A stretch of DNA of 45,527 nucleotides. Source: Candidatus Nanopelagicales bacterium (GTDB lineage Bacteria > Actinomycetota > Actinomycetes > S36-B12 > UBA5976). The notes under the pieces were generated by a model. That model worked only from the letters and a program-made list of their open reading frames with translations. It was not told the DNA's origin and did no database searches. Both the position numbers and the translations under genes were made by a program. The stretch is from NCBI GenBank assembly GCA_023260395.1, contig JALQVI010000006.1, positions 1-45,527 on the forward strand. The letters are read 5' to 3'. Positions 4,384-11,491 of this stretch are shown piece by piece. How positions within the stretch are numbered: position 1 is the first letter of the stretch; every line of letters starts with the position of its first letter.

Positions 4384-5133
4384 GTGTCTTTAACTCCGTC
4401 GCCGCGCCTTTCCCGAAACGCGGGCTATGCCTTGCACGTCATGACTGCCAGCGGCGCAGTGGTTGGAATGCTCGCATTGCAAGCTATTTTTAATGACGAT
4501 GTTCGTTCAGCGTTGATCTGGCTAGTGATTTCACAGATTCTTGATGGCCTCGATGGTCCAATTGCTCGCAAATTTGATGTCCCCATTCACGCTCCGCGCG
4601 TTGATGGCCACATCCTGGACCTTGTGGTGGATTACGTCACGTGCGTCGTAGTCCCGATTGCATTTATGAGTCACTTCGCCATGCTTCCAGCACACTACGA
4701 AACGCTCGTGGCTGGTTCTATTTTCCTTTTTTCAGCGTTGTGGTTTGCACGTACTGACTTGGAAACTGACGATCACTGGTTTAATGGCTTTCCTGCCGCG
4801 TGGAATTTAGTAGTACCTACGATGTTGCTAGCCCACGCTACGACAACTCAAGTTGCTGTCATTTCGTCGATACTGTGCATCACTCAGTTAACTAATTTCA
4901 AGATGCCTCACATAGTTCGATCACCACAATTTCGAAAAATCACGTTGCCTTTTGGAACGATTTATTTGATTAACTTGACCTACTTATCGGTTTCATTTTC
5001 AGATTCCGCATCTGAGCAGCTCAATTGGCTCACAGGTGGAATTTTGTTTGGTTTTGCCGCTTATGTGATGACAATTTCGGTATGGCGAACATTCATCTTT
5101 AAGCCAGCCAATAGTCTTCAAACCACTGCTTAA
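4384..5133 (+). CDS. pcs: Phosphatidylcholine synthase (CDP-alcohol phosphatidyltransferase)
   Basis: Integral membrane enzyme expected to condense CDP-diacylglycerol with choline to give phosphatidylcholine and CMP (EC 2.7.8.24). The CDP-alcohol phosphatidyltransferase signature is present as DGLDGPIAR ... GHILDLVVD, with the catalytic D-G-x2-A-R-x(n)-G-x3-D-x3-D spacing. Features more specific to Pcs than to PgsA or PssA are the HVMTASG opening, VDYVTCVVVPIAF after the signature, and TDDHWFNGFPAAWN. Length (249) suits Pcs. The start is GTG with a -10-like element immediately upstream. It follows the potassium channel by 50 nt as an independent unit. Other alcohol acceptors cannot be excluded. 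Confidence 0.82.
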   Translation: MSLTPSPRLSRNAGYALHVMTASGAVVGMLALQAIFNDDVRSALIWLVISQILDGLDGPIARKFDVPIHAPRVDGHILDLVVDYVTCVVVPIAFMSHFAMLPAHYETLVAGSIFLFSALWFARTDLETDDHWFNGFPAAWNLVVPTMLLAHATTTQVAVISSILCITQLTNFKMPHIVRSPQFRKITLPFGTIYLINLTYLSVSFSDSASEQLNWLTGGILFGFAAYVMTISVWRTFIFKPANSLQTTA

Positions 5134-5137
5134 AGTT

Positions 5138-5149
5138 AGTGCTAGCACT
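5138..5149. promoter_or_regulatory. Palindromic operator candidate upstream of the LuxR-type gene
   Basis: AGTGCTAGCACT is a perfect 12-bp palindrome. It lies where the -35 element would fall for the TAGAAT (-10-like, 5161-5166) upstream of the regulator. The ten bases GCTAGCACTC (5141-5150) recur in a longer palindrome before cydA. Confidence 0.45.
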
Positions 5150-5197
5150 CATCGACTAGGTAGAATTAGGGCATTCCCTAGTGATTGGCGCCGGACT

Positions 5198-5512
5198 TTG
5201 ACTGAACTTCCGCTTCTGGTTCGCGAACTCACACCTTTTGAACATTCGGTATTACTGCTGTTGTGTGAAGGAAAAACCAACGCAGCTATCGCACGCGAAA
5301 CGTCACACTCAGAAAAAGTTATAGAAAATACTGTGAGTCGAGCTGCACACGCATTTAATCTGCATTCCTCGCCAGAAACAAACGTCCGAGTTTTATTAGC
5401 ACTTGCCTACCGATCACATTTTGGCGATAAGGCCTTTGAACGATTTGGTGTGGACTGCCAATATGCCGAGGTTTCAAGCACCGGCCAACGTATGTGCAAC
5501 CGCCATCTTTAG
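5198..5512 (+). CDS. Stand-alone LuxR/GerE-type helix-turn-helix regulator
   Basis: Small DNA-binding protein of 104 residues. Residues about 11-75 form a LuxR-type HTH: LTPFEHSVLLLLCEGKTNAAIA, then SEKVIENTVSRAAHAFNL, matching the four-helix pattern of GerE and NarL output domains. There is no receiver or ligand-binding domain, and only a short cysteine-containing tail (two Cys). The start is the rare TTG at 5198, the only in-frame candidate; it overlaps the stop of a seven-codon GTG reading frame (5181-5201), so translation may be coupled. It precedes cydABDC in the same direction, and related palindromes lie before both, making it the leading candidate for regulator of the bd oxidase operon (inference). 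Confidence 0.75.
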   Translation: MTELPLLVRELTPFEHSVLLLLCEGKTNAAIARETSHSEKVIENTVSRAAHAFNLHSSPETNVRVLLALAYRSHFGDKAFERFGVDCQYAEVSSTGQRMCNRHL

Positions 5513-5532
5513 GTGACTGCTTTCACATACGC

Positions 5533-5550
5533 GTGAGGGCTAGCACTCAC
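5533..5550. promoter_or_regulatory. Palindromic operator candidate upstream of cydA
   Basis: GTGAGGGCTAGCACTCAC is an 18-bp palindrome with one mismatched pair, centred 82 bases before the cydA start. It shares the core GCTAGCACTC with the palindrome before the LuxR-type regulator gene. Probable site for a dimeric regulator. Confidence 0.5.
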
Positions 5551-5584
5551 AACTTTTGCGTTATCGGTTCGTTACCGAAAATAG

Positions 5585-5615
5585 CCTTGAGGGGTAAGAC
5601 AAATACCTCTCAAGG
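5585..5615 (+). promoter_or_regulatory. Hairpin enclosing the cydA ribosome binding site
   Basis: CCTTGAGGGGTA (5585-5596) pairs with TACCTCTCAAGG (5604-5615) over 12 positions, one being a G-U pair in RNA, with a 7-nt loop. The right arm holds most of the AAGGAG ribosome site (5612-5617) of cydA, so folding would hide it. It could equally be a DNA operator if transcription starts inside it. Confidence 0.5.
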
Positions 5616-5623
5616 AGAATCCC

Positions 5624-7024
5624 ATGGATGCCCTAGATCTTGCTAGATGGCAGTTCGGCATTACGACTGTTTACCACTTTCTATTCGTCCCTATCACGAT
5701 TGGTCTGGGCTTTCTGGTCGCAGGACTTCAGACCGCTTGGTATCGCACCGGTAAGGACGTGTACCTTCGTGCGACAAAGTTTTACGGAAAGCTTTTCCTG
5801 ATTAACTTCGCCATGGGTGTTGTCACTGGAATCGTGCAGGAATTTCAGTTCGGCATGAACTGGTCCACCTATTCACGATTCGTAGGTGACATCTTCGGAG
5901 CTCCCCTAGCTATCGAAGGCCTCTTGGCGTTCTTCCTTGAATCAACATTCTTAGGCGCTTGGATCTTCGGTTGGGATCGTCTGCCAAAGAAAATGCACTT
6001 GGCAACGATTTGGCTCGCATCCTTCGGTACGTTGCTATCTGCGTATTTCATTTTGGCTGCGAACTCATTCATGCAACATCCAACGGGTTACGTGTACAAC
6101 GCTACAACTGGTCGCGCAGAGCTCGTTGATTTTGCCGCAGTGCTAACCCAGAACACCACCATCACAGCATTCCTTCACACTGTGACGTCAGCATTCCTCG
6201 AAGCAGGCGCGCTAGTCGCGGGAATCTCGGCATGGTTACTTGTGAAGAACAAGGCTGCAGATGTTGCACGTCCAACAATGAAGATGGGTCTCATCACCAC
6301 CTTGGTTGCTAGCGTTTTAGTATTCATCTCCGGTGACATGCAGGCACGAGTCATGACCGAACAACAGCCAATGAAGATGGCTGCAGCTGAAGCACAGTTC
6401 GACACCACTGACCATGCCTCATTCAGTATCTTGACCATTGGCTCACTTGATGGATCAAAGGCACTCTTCCAAATTCGTATTCCAAATGTGTTGTCCTTGA
6501 TGTCAACAGGCAGTGCCAGCGGCACTGTCGAAGGCATAAACGACATTCAAGCCCAGTACGAAGAAAAGTACGGCGCAGATTCTTACAAGCCAGTTATTCC
6601 GGTGGCGTACTGGACTTTCCGATTCATGATCGGATTTGGTGCACTTGCTGGATTGTTTGCTCTCTATGCCCTCTTTGCAACTCGCAAGGGACGCACCCCC
6701 CAAAGTAAATGGTTCTCTCGCTTTGCGCTGGCAATGCCGTTCTTGCCACTAGCAGGTATCGCCTTTGGCTGGATGTTCACCGAAATGGCTCGCCAACCAT
6801 GGATTGTGTTTGGCCTCATGCGAACTGCCGATGGCGTTTCTGCAGCCGCTAGTAGCACTGAAGTGTTGATTTCTTTGGTGACCCTGACTTTGCTCTACGC
6901 GGTACTAGCCGTCATTGAATTCGGATTGATTACGAAAGCAATCAAGATCGGTCCACCAGAAAACGTCACCGTTCATGATGACGCCAGTCCAGAGAATGAA
7001 CGTGTCCTCACGTTCTCTTACTAG
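5624..7024 (+). CDS. cydA: Cytochrome bd quinol oxidase subunit I
   Basis: Catalytic subunit of the membrane terminal oxidase that reduces O2 to water with quinol, without pumping protons but with high oxygen affinity. Haem ligands can be placed by family precedent: His18 (TTVYHFLFVP), His185 (TAFLHTVTSAF) and Met388 (MFTEMARQPW). The quinol loop residues Lys251 and Glu256 are in QQPMKMAAAE. At 466 residues it has the short Q-loop form. AAGGAG precedes the ATG, but inside a hairpin. First gene of the cydABDC cluster, followed by cydB after 19 nt. A membrane enzyme used under low oxygen or respiratory stress. Confidence 0.97.
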   Translation: MDALDLARWQFGITTVYHFLFVPITIGLGFLVAGLQTAWYRTGKDVYLRATKFYGKLFLINFAMGVVTGIVQEFQFGMNWSTYSRFVGDIFGAPLAIEGLLAFFLESTFLGAWIFGWDRLPKKMHLATIWLASFGTLLSAYFILAANSFMQHPTGYVYNATTGRAELVDFAAVLTQNTTITAFLHTVTSAFLEAGALVAGISAWLLVKNKAADVARPTMKMGLITTLVASVLVFISGDMQARVMTEQQPMKMAAAEAQFDTTDHASFSILTIGSLDGSKALFQIRIPNVLSLMSTGSASGTVEGINDIQAQYEEKYGADSYKPVIPVAYWTFRFMIGFGALAGLFALYALFATRKGRTPQSKWFSRFALAMPFLPLAGIAFGWMFTEMARQPWIVFGLMRTADGVSAAASSTEVLISLVTLTLLYAVLAVIEFGLITKAIKIGPPENVTVHDDASPENERVLTFSY

Positions 7025-7043: not shown

Positions 7044-8093
7044 ATGGAACTACAAACCGTTTGGTTCGCACTCATCGCCGTTCTCTGGATCGGCTACTTT
7101 GTCCTGGAAGGTTTCGACTTCGGTGTTGGAATGCTTCTGAAAATTGTCGGTAAGACCGAAGCTGAACGTCGCGCCATCATCACAACTCTCGGGCCGTTGT
7201 GGGATGGAAATGAAGTTTGGGTACTTGTAGCTGGTGGCGCAACTTTTGCCGCGTTCCCAGAGTGGTACGCCACGTTGTTTAGCGGCTTCTACTTGCCACT
7301 ACTTCTCATCCTGGTTGCACTCATCATTCGTGGTGTTGCGTTTGAATACCGCAGCAAGCATGCCGACTTGGCATGGCGCGCACGTTGGGATTGGGCAATC
7401 GGTATTGGGTCATTCGTGCCGGCATTGCTGTGGGGTGTTGCATTCGCAAACATTGTTCGCGGTGTTCCACTGGAACAGAACGCTCAAGGCAACATCGAAT
7501 ACGTAGGTGGCTTCTTCAATTTGTTGAACCCTTACGCGCTCCTCGGCGGACTTGTCACGATGACACTGTTCTTAACTCACGGTGCAATCTTCTTGACACT
7601 CAAGATGTCTGGCGACATTCGTGATCGTGCACATGCACTAGCTACCAAAATTGGTCTCGTAGCTGCCGTTCTCGCAGTTGCATTCTTGGTATGGACTCAG
7701 CTTGCTTACAGTGAAAAGAGTTGGACATGGATTACGATCGTTGCAGCCGCAGTGTGCTGGCTTGCCGGGCTTGCAATGAATTTCAAGCGTCGCGAAGGTT
7801 GGGCGTTTATTTTCAGTGCACTTACTCTTGCGCTTGCTGTCGTGACTTTGTTTGGCGTGCTCTACCCCAACGTGATGCCAAACATTGATCGCGCACTTGT
7901 TGGACTAGACATTCATAATGCTTCGTCAACGCAATACACGCTCAAAATCATGACGATTGTTGCTGCGGTATTTACTCCTATCGTCTTGGCTTACCAAGCC
8001 TGGACTTACTGGATTTTCCGCAAGCGCATGTCAGCCGAACAGATTCCAACTCCAGAGGCTGGCACACTTGGAGAACTCACTAAATCTCAGTAA
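7044..8093 (+). CDS. cydB: Cytochrome bd quinol oxidase subunit II
   Basis: Second structural subunit of the bd oxidase, 349 residues, with about eight to nine membrane helices. Recognised by the opening WFALIAVLWIGYFVLEGFDF, which is highly conserved in CydB, and by GPLWDGNEVWVLVAGGATFA. It stabilises CydA and its haems. It lies 19 nt after cydA and 9 nt before cydD, so the four genes are almost certainly co-transcribed. No separate small CydX-like frame was recognised after it; cydD follows at once. Confidence 0.97.
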   Translation: MELQTVWFALIAVLWIGYFVLEGFDFGVGMLLKIVGKTEAERRAIITTLGPLWDGNEVWVLVAGGATFAAFPEWYATLFSGFYLPLLLILVALIIRGVAFEYRSKHADLAWRARWDWAIGIGSFVPALLWGVAFANIVRGVPLEQNAQGNIEYVGGFFNLLNPYALLGGLVTMTLFLTHGAIFLTLKMSGDIRDRAHALATKIGLVAAVLAVAFLVWTQLAYSEKSWTWITIVAAAVCWLAGLAMNFKRREGWAFIFSALTLALAVVTLFGVLYPNVMPNIDRALVGLDIHNASSTQYTLKIMTIVAAVFTPIVLAYQAWTYWIFRKRMSAEQIPTPEAGTLGELTKSQ

Positions 8094-8102
8094 AGGAGCA
8101 AT

Positions 8103-9752
8103 GTGAAGCCGCTAGACCCGCGACTTATCAAGCACGCAACTGCGGTTCGCACGTTTCTCACTTTCGCAGTCGTTAACGGAACAGTTACCGCTGCAGCAGT
8201 CATCGCCCAAGCAGTTGTCTTGGGCGATCTGCTTTCCGGGATTTTTGCTGGCAGTAAGTCAAGCGCAGACATCACTCGCGCGCTTGGCTTGTTGCTGAGT
8301 ATTTATGCCATTCGTGCATTGACGTCATGGATTGGTGACTGGGCGGCGCACAAGACAAGCGCTACAGCCAAAAGAGAATTGCGCTCATCCCTTGCCCGCA
8401 AAATTTTCGACCTTGGACCGATGTGGGTTGGGCAACATCGCAGCAGTGAATTAGTGACGACAGCAATGCGAGGCCTTGACTCACTCGATGTGTATTTCTC
8501 GAAATACCTGCCACAGCTAGTCCTTGCAGCAATCATTCCACTTGCCGTTGGCACCACGATTTTGACCAATGATGTTTTATCGGCAGTTATCGTGGCACTG
8601 ACAATTCCACTCATCCCTTTCTTTATGGCACTGGTTGGCTGGTTTACTCAAGCCCAAGTCGACAAACAATGGCAGAGTTTGCAACGCCTTGCCGGCCACT
8701 TCCTCGACTTAATTACGGGACTGCCAACACTCAAGGCCTTCAATCGTTCTCAATCCCAAGAAGCAGGATTGAGAAAAGTTGGCGATGACTATCGCACCAA
8801 CACAATGTCAGTACTCAAAATTTCATTTTTGTCATCTTTTGTCCTGGAGCTCATTTCAACAATCTCAGTGGCTCTTGTTGCAGTTTCGATTGGTTTACGT
8901 CTCGTTAATGGCGACATGAACTTGCGCGATGGACTCATCATTTTGATTCTCGTTCCTGAGGCTTACCTTCCGCTACGCGCTCTTGGCACACAGTTCCATG
9001 CAATGACCGAAGGCCTTGAGGCAGCTGATCGCGTATTCACAATCTTGGAGACAGAAAGTGTTGAGAATCAAGGTCACCTCGAATTGACCACCATCGGAGA
9101 AATCAACTTCGCCAATGTTTCGGTCACATATCCCGACTCAACAGAGCCTGCGCTCTCACAATTCAACGCAACTTTTCGCCAAGGTGAACTATCGGTCATT
9201 TCTGGAGTCAGTGGCTCAGGCAAGACAACAGCAATTGCCACGCTTCTAAAATTTGCTACCGGCTACGAAGGTGACATCACCGTTAGTGGCATTTCACTTC
9301 GCGATATTTCAACTCAATCTCTTCGTCAACACATCGCATACTTGCCGCAACAACCGTGGCTCCCCCACGGCTCACTTCGACAGTCGCTTTCTTTGGCTGG
9401 CACATTCATAGATAGCGAGTTAATCGCTGCATGCCAACGTGTGGGCCTTGACATTCACGACGAGGCGCAATTCCCCAGCGGCTTGGACACTGTGTTGAGT
9501 AGTCAGAGTGGACTGTCTTCAGGTCAGCGTCGTCGCGTAGCCCTTGCCCGGGTACTGCTCCAAAACCGACCAGTTCTTATCCTTGACGAACCCACCGCTG
9601 CAGTGGATGCACAAACCGAAGAACTCATCACGACGATCATCCAAGAACTTGTTGCCGCAGGCTCGACCGTCATTGCCGTCGCGCATCGCCCATCCCTCAT
9701 CGTCCTAGCGGACTCAGTTACGAAAATTCGCCAACTTGAGGTCACTTCATGA
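8103..9752 (+). CDS. cydD: CydD: heterodimeric ABC exporter subunit for bd oxidase assembly
   Basis: ABC exporter half with an N-terminal six-helix membrane domain (residues about 15-310) and a C-terminal ATPase. Walker A is GVSGSGKT at about 368-375, the signature is LSSGQRRR, and Walker B is VLILDEPTA. CydDC exports reductants (cysteine, glutathione or related thiols) and binds haem; it is required to mature cytochrome bd. The start is GTG 8103, not the overlapping ATG at 8101, which reads straight into a stop; GGAG lies just upstream. Coupled to cydC by an ATGA overlap. Assigned as CydD by gene order. Confidence 0.92.
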   Translation: MKPLDPRLIKHATAVRTFLTFAVVNGTVTAAAVIAQAVVLGDLLSGIFAGSKSSADITRALGLLLSIYAIRALTSWIGDWAAHKTSATAKRELRSSLARKIFDLGPMWVGQHRSSELVTTAMRGLDSLDVYFSKYLPQLVLAAIIPLAVGTTILTNDVLSAVIVALTIPLIPFFMALVGWFTQAQVDKQWQSLQRLAGHFLDLITGLPTLKAFNRSQSQEAGLRKVGDDYRTNTMSVLKISFLSSFVLELISTISVALVAVSIGLRLVNGDMNLRDGLIILILVPEAYLPLRALGTQFHAMTEGLEAADRVFTILETESVENQGHLELTTIGEINFANVSVTYPDSTEPALSQFNATFRQGELSVISGVSGSGKTTAIATLLKFATGYEGDITVSGISLRDISTQSLRQHIAYLPQQPWLPHGSLRQSLSLAGTFIDSELIAACQRVGLDIHDEAQFPSGLDTVLSSQSGLSSGQRRRVALARVLLQNRPVLILDEPTAAVDAQTEELITTIIQELVAAGSTVIAVAHRPSLIVLADSVTKIRQLEVTS

Positions 9753-11491
9753 ATTCGACAAGAACAATGTGGGCGAATTTCACTCAAGTTAAGTGGCAAC
9801 TTCGTGGCGCCGCCATGCTCGCTGCTCTAACAACTATCAGCACTGTTTCACTCTTGGCCACTAGCGGCTGGCTAATTGCGCGAGCCGCTCAAATGCCAGC
9901 GATTTTAGATCTCAGTATTGCCATTGTTGGTGTGCGAACTTTCGCATTATTGCGCAGCGTTACTCGATATTCAGAACGTCTCATTTCACATAACGCAACG
10001 TTCCAATCATTGCCCAGTATTCGGATTGCGATGTATCGCAAGCTCGAACAATTAACACCATCGGGCTTGGCACAATTTCATCGTGGCGACCTCATGTCTC
10101 GAGTCGTCGCCGATGTTGATGACATTCAAGACTTGCCCCTGCGCGTTTACCTGCCCATCGCATCAAGCATCATTTCGTCGGTGTTTTGTATCGGTCTAGT
10201 GACGTGGATCTTGCCACTCGCTGGAGCGCTATTCGGCACCTGCCTTGTCGTGGCAGCACTTTGCGTCCCAATGATTTCGGCACGAACTGGAGCTGCTCAT
10301 CAGCAGGCGTTAGCTCAATCCCGAAGCACCCTAAGTGAATCGCTCTTGGACTTCCATGAAGGCTTAACTGACATCGCAATGCTCGATGCCGGCGAGCAGG
10401 TCCTTCGCAGCATCGACGAAGCTAATGACGCCGTATCGCGAATTGATCGTTCATTTGCCACACGTACCGGAATCGCCTCTGCAGCGATCGTCATTCTCCA
10501 AGGCGTCGCGCTGTGTGCCACGGTGTGGGCTTCGGTACGTTCACTCGACAACACAGGTATCAACCCAGTCCAGATCGTCGTGCTTGGCTTGATTCCGCTT
10601 GCCGCATTCGAGTCCGTAACTGGTCTACCAAATGCACTATTGACGCTTAATCGCACACGCGGTGCTGCAAATCGTCTCGTAGAGATTCTTGAAACACCAA
10701 TTTCTCAAACTGACACAGGCAGTGAGGACATTTCCTCCTACGGCTTTGAACTCACCAACATTTCAGCACGCTGGCCGGGGTCTCATCGACTGGCACTTTC
10801 GAACATTGACTGCTCAATACCGGAAACGACTTCCTCTTTCCTAATCGGCCAAAGCGGATCAGGCAAATCTTCATTGATTGCTATTTTGACCAAACTTCTC
10901 GAAGCCGAGAGCGGCACTGTCAACGTTGGCGACAAGGACATCTCAGATATTTCTGGAACACACCTTCGTCAGCACGTGATTGCAACTGGGCATGATGCTC
11001 ACATCTTTGCCACATCGATTGCCGAAAATCTTCGACTCGCTAGCTCGATCGAAGTTACCGATGCGCACGTAACGAGCGCCTTGGAACACGTCGAACTTTC
11101 CGAATGGGTCGCTTCCCTACCCCACGGCATTCACACAGTGCTGGGAGACAATGGCACACAAATGTCAGGTGGCCAACGACAACGCCTATTACTTGCCCGA
11201 CTTTTCATCGCACGGTCCGATGTGTGGATCATTGATGAGCCAAGCGAACATCTCGATTCGCTATTGGCTGATGTTGTTTTGGCTAACATTCGAGCCGCAA
11301 CAAAAGACCGCACATTAATTGTTGCAACACATCGACTAAGCGACTCCATTGGCAGCGATAGCATCACAGTTCTGGCAAATGGCGAAGTCATCGAAAGCGG
11401 CCAGCAATCTTGTTTAGCGTCCGAGCACGGATACTTTGCAAGCACTCTGCGCAACGAGCAGCTTGCGCAAGCCAGACTGGCCCTCGACTAG
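9749..11491 (+). CDS. cydC: CydC: partner subunit of the CydDC exporter
   Basis: Second half of the heterodimeric ABC exporter, 580 residues, overlapping cydD by four bases (ATGA). Membrane domain about residues 15-310, with LLATSGWLIARAAQMPAI as a typical CydC opening; ATPase with Walker A GQSGSGKS (about 367-374), signature MSGGQRQR and Walker B VWIIDEPSEHLD. The usual DEPT is DEPS here, as in many CydC proteins. Works with CydD in thiol and redox balance on the outer side of the membrane. Last gene of the cyd cluster; no clear terminator follows before the next gene 36 nt on. Confidence 0.93.
   Translation: MNSTRTMWANFTQVKWQLRGAAMLAALTTISTVSLLATSGWLIARAAQMPAILDLSIAIVGVRTFALLRSVTRYSERLISHNATFQSLPSIRIAMYRKLEQLTPSGLAQFHRGDLMSRVVADVDDIQDLPLRVYLPIASSIISSVFCIGLVTWILPLAGALFGTCLVVAALCVPMISARTGAAHQQALAQSRSTLSESLLDFHEGLTDIAMLDAGEQVLRSIDEANDAVSRIDRSFATRTGIASAAIVILQGVALCATVWASVRSLDNTGINPVQIVVLGLIPLAAFESVTGLPNALLTLNRTRGAANRLVEILETPISQTDTGSEDISSYGFELTNISARWPGSHRLALSNIDCSIPETTSSFLIGQSGSGKSSLIAILTKLLEAESGTVNVGDKDISDISGTHLRQHVIATGHDAHIFATSIAENLRLASSIEVTDAHVTSALEHVELSEWVASLPHGIHTVLGDNGTQMSGGQRQRLLLARLFIARSDVWIIDEPSEHLDSLLADVVLANIRAATKDRTLIVATHRLSDSIGSDSITVLANGEVIESGQQSCLASEHGYFASTLRNEQLAQARLALD

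Follow-up and report, generated by a model that had tools for sequence, protein, structure and literature searches.

The window analysed here, a 45,527-nucleotide stretch of DNA from a Candidatus Nanopelagicales bacterium (contig JALQVI010000006.1), contains a small gene for a stand-alone LuxR/GerE-type protein just 5' of the cytochrome bd oxidase gene cydA, with a palindrome before each of these two genes. This arrangement raises the question of whether the protein, the palindromes and the oxidase genes make up one control unit, as proposed in an earlier note on this DNA, and whether such a unit would serve the cyd genes only. The features concerned are listed in Table 1.

Table 1. Features of the regulator-cyd region, with their positions in the window
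Feature	Position	Strand	Remarks
Box 1, TAGTGCTAGCACTC	5137-5150	.	Includes the perfect palindrome 5138-5149; over the -35 position of the putative regulator promoter
Putative -10 of regulator promoter, TAGAAT	5161-5166	+	Read from the sequence
Stand-alone GerE/LuxR-type regulator, 104 aa, TTG start	5198-5512	+	Pfam GerE, E = 1e-5
Box 2, GAGGGCTAGCACTC	5535-5548	.	About 75 bp 5' of the cydA start codon; inside the 18-bp palindrome 5533-5550
Leader hairpin, CCTTGAGGGGTA-N7-TACCTCTCAAGG	5585-5615	+	Pairs part of the cydA ribosome-binding site
cydA, cytochrome bd subunit I	5624-7024	+	Pfam Cyt_bd_oxida_I, E = 5e-160
cydB, cytochrome bd subunit II	7044-8093	+	Pfam Cyt_bd_oxida_II, E = 1e-111; NCBIfam cydB
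Two ABC-transporter ORFs (8103-9752 and 9749-11491)	8103-11491	+	In cydD/cydC position; ORFs and position only

Palindromic boxes and regulator protein in the window

The first palindrome (AGTGCTAGCACT, 5138-5149) extends over 12 bp with no mismatch. The second (GTGAGGGCTAGCACTCAC, 5533-5550) is palindromic at 16 of its 18 positions and is, hence, not perfect, having one mismatched pair. The core GCTAGCACTC is common to both (5141-5150 and 5539-5548), and the presence of a -10-like TAGAAT downstream from the first palindrome places box 1 over the -35 position of the regulator promoter. The earlier note had thus correctly described the first palindrome as perfect and as located at this -35 position, and the 10-base core as shared; it had also located the 18-bp palindrome correctly, but without its mismatched pair. 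A single 12-bp palindrome is unremarkable, because the window contains 15 perfect ones. The pattern GAGTGCTAGCACTC with up to one mismatch occurs at only two places in the 1.70-Mb genome, both of them the window boxes, for an expected number of 0.27. With two mismatches, the same pattern is found at six places, about the number expected by chance (five within ORFs and one in CIRCE DNA 5' of groEL), and no wider regulon was found in this genome by the 1.70-Mb scan. A search for the box 5' of the genome's own main ctaA and long fused CtaG gene found none. These genome scans were pattern searches and the assembly is 78% complete, so further box sites may be missing.

The cyd boxes and CIRCE, the heat-shock control site of HrcA (half-sites TTAGCACTC and GAGTGCTAA), have the half-site TAGCACTC in common, and sites of the TTAGCACTC type precede groEL in the window genome, as would be expected if both palindromes were HrcA/CIRCE control sites. 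However, CIRCE elements are ordered TTAGCACTC-N9-GAGTGCTAA, whereas the halves of the cyd boxes are reversed in order and abut, with no spacer, and the boxes track the GerE regulator rather than chaperone genes across genomes. This identity is, therefore, extremely improbable, and it was rejected on the basis of the difference in half-site geometry. The groEL gene of the window genome is preceded by two canonical CIRCE elements with 9-bp spacers (L010:1060-1140, G000:C131).

The cydA-proximal palindrome might also be a mere terminator or RNA hairpin, resembling box 1 by chance or through duplication, given that it sits between two co-directional genes and that some exact boxes in relatives form part of longer hairpins (L184, L327). 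Nevertheless, it is not followed by a T run, the cydA leader is filled by a separate, stronger hairpin at 5585-5615, and relatives also have the box in promoter regions shared by divergent genes (CtaG/cox; regulator/cytochrome b), a place where a terminator would hardly be expected; this explanation thus seems very improbable. The leader hairpin itself (fold of 5579-5640: -20.9 kcal/mol, z -2.7) may constitute a second, independent layer of control on cydA, at the RNA level. Similar hairpins, with a different stem sequence, are found 5' of cydA in G002, G003 and G010, including genomes without the regulator. A phosphatidylcholine-synthase-like CDP-alcohol phosphatidyltransferase is encoded directly 5' of the regulator gene in the window (4384-5133), and likewise in G002.

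GerE is the sole Pfam domain above the cut-off in the 104-aa regulator (25.5 bits, against a cut-off of 23.5), and its helix-turn-helix (HTH) domain starts near residue 10. Only this HTH was found with Pfam and NCBIfam, with no N-terminal receiver domain bearing a phosphoacceptor, and Pfam detected no autoinducer-binding domain of the kind present in quorum-sensing LuxR proteins. A search of the PDB with a profile built from 55 relatives gave matches to the DNA-binding domains of DosR, NarL and GerE, the closest solved structures being those of DosR (1zlj, 1zlk), and the HTH fold in the AlphaFold2 model (mean pLDDT 81.7) matches those of LiaR, NarL, DosR and GerE. In this model, the HTH gives way to a short helix and then to a beta-hairpin, which is modelled with less confidence (pLDDT about 52-70) and has C87 and C100 at its borders. 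These two residues belong to a tail, C87-x-Y...C100-x2-H103, at the C-terminus of the window protein; both are invariant in the 55 aligned relatives, and a C-terminal tail of the form C-x-[HY]...C-x2-[H/D/E] is present in 80 of 83 regulator relatives. The first tail His is replaced by Tyr in five rows (the window, G002, G020 and the two G024 copies), and diverged relatives without the full tail are found in G005, G008 and G019. Judging from its conservation, the Cys/His tail is probably a metal site or thiol switch through which the protein would sense redox, metal or heme status. The earlier description of the protein as LuxR/GerE-type, with no sensor domain, holds for the GerE HTH, but 'no sensor domain' is too strong for a protein with a conserved candidate metal or thiol site, which is not a bare HTH.

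The regulator could, alternatively, control its genes as a constitutive, signal-less repressor or activator with a purely structural tail. The searches revealed no ligand or receiver domain, the existence of relatives lacking the full tail is compatible with this possibility, and the stand-alone GerE of Bacillus provides a signal-less precedent. However, the invariance of C87 and C100 and the fixed pattern in 80 of 83 proteins are more than a dispensable tail would retain, making this alternative rather unlikely.

Regulator and box in related genomes

In G002, an orthologue 84% identical to the window regulator lies directly 5' of cydA, and G024, which belongs to another genus, has two regulator-cydA copies on one contig. 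The G024 copies emerged when cydA was mapped in the same genomes, the first list of orthologues alone having made the linkage look weak. The box 5' of cydA reads GAGGGCTAGCACTC in the window, GAGGGCTAGCCCTC in G002, and GAGTGGTAGCCCCA and GAGTGCCAGCCCCA in G024. The G002 box has no mismatch to GAGKGCYRGCMCTC, the pair mismatched in the window being matched there; the G024 boxes are weak, with three and two mismatches. The regulator promoter of G002 has likewise retained its box (GAGTGCTGCCACTC), and the spacing between this box and a -10-like TAAGAT is that seen in the window. No cydA box was found in the congeners G003 and G010, which have cydA but lack the regulator, the best matches having five and six mismatches. 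The cydA-proximal boxes are known from only four loci in three genomes. According to the earlier note, loss of the palindromes in relatives retaining the gene pair would argue against its proposal; in both G002 and G024, the boxes are kept, and the proposal is not refuted. The two G024 copies (L080 and L098, G024:C56) are about 10 kb apart and have diverged flanks, with a box GATGAGTG...AGCCCCA kept 5' of each cydA.

A scan of public genomes yielded 199 relatives of the regulator, and 80 loci were kept, nearly all of them from freshwater actinobacteria and many titled Planktophila or Nanopelagicaceae. Among 395 genomes drawn from across the class, the regulator family was present in 30, all belonging to a single family, and in two more from the genus of the window. 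Its genes adjoin cydA, a divergent cytochrome b operon, or an enoyl-CoA hydratase/SDR on one side and a gene referred to here as the cluster 2 gene on the other, or they are unlinked. The acI-type loci L097, L103 and L108 come from MAG records, probably mislabelled, that bear the title Bifidobacterium breve or Streptomyces griseus. The cluster 2 gene encodes a membrane protein of about 190 aa with no Pfam match (L148:6475-7050, L181:2132-2725), with the box 5' of it in acI, G020 and G036. The cytochrome b module, which is uncharacterised, consists of a cytochrome b6-like gene and, after it, a gene whose product (313-324 aa) matches no Pfam family; a small membrane protein is often encoded there as well (L138:4108-5693, L182:2364-4161). 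The module adjoins the regulator or its box.

Of 83 regions 5' of the regulator gene, 15 contain the box with up to two mismatches (0.13 in shuffles). These boxes belong to the cyd- and cytochrome-b-linked clades, and the start codon mostly follows at a distance of 55-61 bp. The main acI clade has its box in the interval separating the regulator from the cluster 2 gene: all 54 such intervals contain one with up to four mismatches (shuffles 4.5), and 41 of the 54 contain one with up to three (shuffles 0.5); many acI genomes have only degenerate boxes, with no exact one. Perfect or near-perfect boxes also occur at loci unlinked to the regulator: 5' of the cytochrome b operon (G020), the cluster 2 gene (G020, G036), an accessory heme A synthase gene, ctaA (G169, G170, G179), and a fatty-acid desaturase gene (G293, G540), and at a divergent CtaG/COX2/COX1 locus (G175-G179, G475). 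In G172 and G174, the box falls within the 5' end of ctaG. In 49 genomes with the regulator (two of which, G174 and G387, look like the same assembly), exact GAGKGCYRGCMCTC was counted 21 times, versus once for a reversed-pattern control; in 11 genomes without the regulator, the pattern and the control were each counted once. Some exact boxes are not promoter sites, being located within ORFs or in hairpins that resemble terminators.

The boxes may, in principle, be bound by another GerE-type protein, such as the full-length response regulator G000:C145, with the stand-alone protein serving as a modulator or acting elsewhere. The window genome does encode NarL-type response regulators with an HTH 34-40% identical to that of the stand-alone protein, and other families of the order make use of DosR-like boxes 5' of cydA (8 of 21 cydA genes, near variants counted). 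However, no such box precedes cydA in G003 and G010, both of which encode response regulators, the exact box is at the control level in the 11 genomes without the stand-alone gene, and the box is found at the stand-alone regulator's own promoter in several clades. Binding by another GerE-type protein is, thus, improbable. DosR-like boxes (e.g. GGGACTTTGGTCCC) were observed 5' of cydA at L055-L059, L065, L068 and L069, and some of the cydA upstream DNA containing such a box also resembles the start of a divergent response-regulator gene.

The regulator-operator pair, as read from these genomes, is real and conserved. The gene and the palindromes behave as a unit in relatives, as the earlier note had proposed, but this unit is not specific to cyd: other respiratory genes carry the box as well in genomes with the regulator, the regulator is widespread in freshwater actinobacteria, and the cyd linkage is a variant in the window's own family.

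Comparison with known regulators

ArcA, Fnr, Rex, CRP-type regulators and SigC control cydAB according to oxygen, redox or respiratory status; their protein families and sites are unrelated to the window regulator, and none of them is the small protein encoded in the window. HrrA is a member of the LuxR/NarL-type family. It resembles the window regulator in being actinobacterial, with a LuxR/NarL-type HTH, a palindromic motif and respiratory targets. In Corynebacterium glutamicum, HrrA recognizes a palindromic motif and binds 5' of cydABDC, ctaC and other respiratory genes, and SigC and OxyR are also cyd regulators in this species (PMC7337898). HrrA is, however, a full response regulator operating with a heme-sensing kinase (HrrSA), whereas the window protein has no receiver, carries a Cys/His tail and has a different box. 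DosR/DevR of Mycobacterium tuberculosis, with the closest solved DNA-binding domain by profile, likewise differs in being a response regulator of two domains and in its box. The DosR-like boxes and the predicted regulator box are of equal length (14 bp), but the DosR-like box GGGACT...AGTCCC is absent 5' of the window's cydA.

The GerE protein of Bacillus subtilis is a stand-alone GerE-domain regulator with the same HTH fold and with no receiver or ligand domain. This signal-less protein (about 74 aa) controls spore-coat genes. It is not known to have a conserved Cys/His tail or respiratory targets of the kind predicted for the window regulator family.

Searches of the literature for a LuxR-type single-domain cyd regulator yielded HrrSA as the only relevant precedent, and a search for the box itself found no paper. 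The presence of a LuxR/NarL-type HTH at cyd promoters is already known as an idea, given HrrA and the DosR-like cydA boxes. The earlier view that no cyd regulator of this form has been described must, therefore, be narrowed (PMC7337898): it continues to apply to the stand-alone form with its Cys/His tail, box and distribution, none of which was found in the literature searched.

Predicted control circuit and its significance

A regulator dimer would bind the 14-bp inverted repeat GAG(T/G)GCYRGC(A/C)CTC. Binding to box 1, over the regulator's own -35 position, would lead to autoregulation, probably repression, and binding to box 2 would activate cydABDC from upstream of the promoter, both signs being guessed from the position of the box. 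The family probably tunes alternative respiratory enzymes, because the box also precedes cytochrome b, CtaG/cox, heme A synthase and membrane-protein genes. The nature of the predicted targets (terminal oxidases, heme A synthesis, cytochrome b and an oxygen-requiring desaturase) suggests that oxygen, redox, metal or heme status may be the signal. This explanation as a whole, with a stand-alone GerE regulator and its 14-bp box, autoregulation, cydABDC activation, a family tuning alternative respiratory enzymes and a Cys/His signal, is considered likely. A more specific reading is possible but tentative. The protein may be a one-component sensor of redox or metal status of a kind not described before, in which the Cys/His hairpin of a GerE protein lacking a receiver does the sensing. 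Such sensors would be common among freshwater acI actinobacteria and would act through one shared operator on the alternative terminal oxidases (bd and accessory cox), on cytochrome b and on the synthesis of heme A.

As a conserved protein-box pair recurring 5' of respiration genes, this system looks like an undescribed respiration control circuit. Actinobacteria of the acI lineage and their relatives are among the most abundant lake bacteria, and no regulator of the acI respiratory chain was found in the literature searched. With this circuit, the control of cyd in actinobacteria would extend beyond the two-component, sigma-factor and CRP-type forms to a small, one-component one, and a 104-aa regulator with a defined box would make the respiratory regulon predictable from sequence in genomes that are mostly uncultured.
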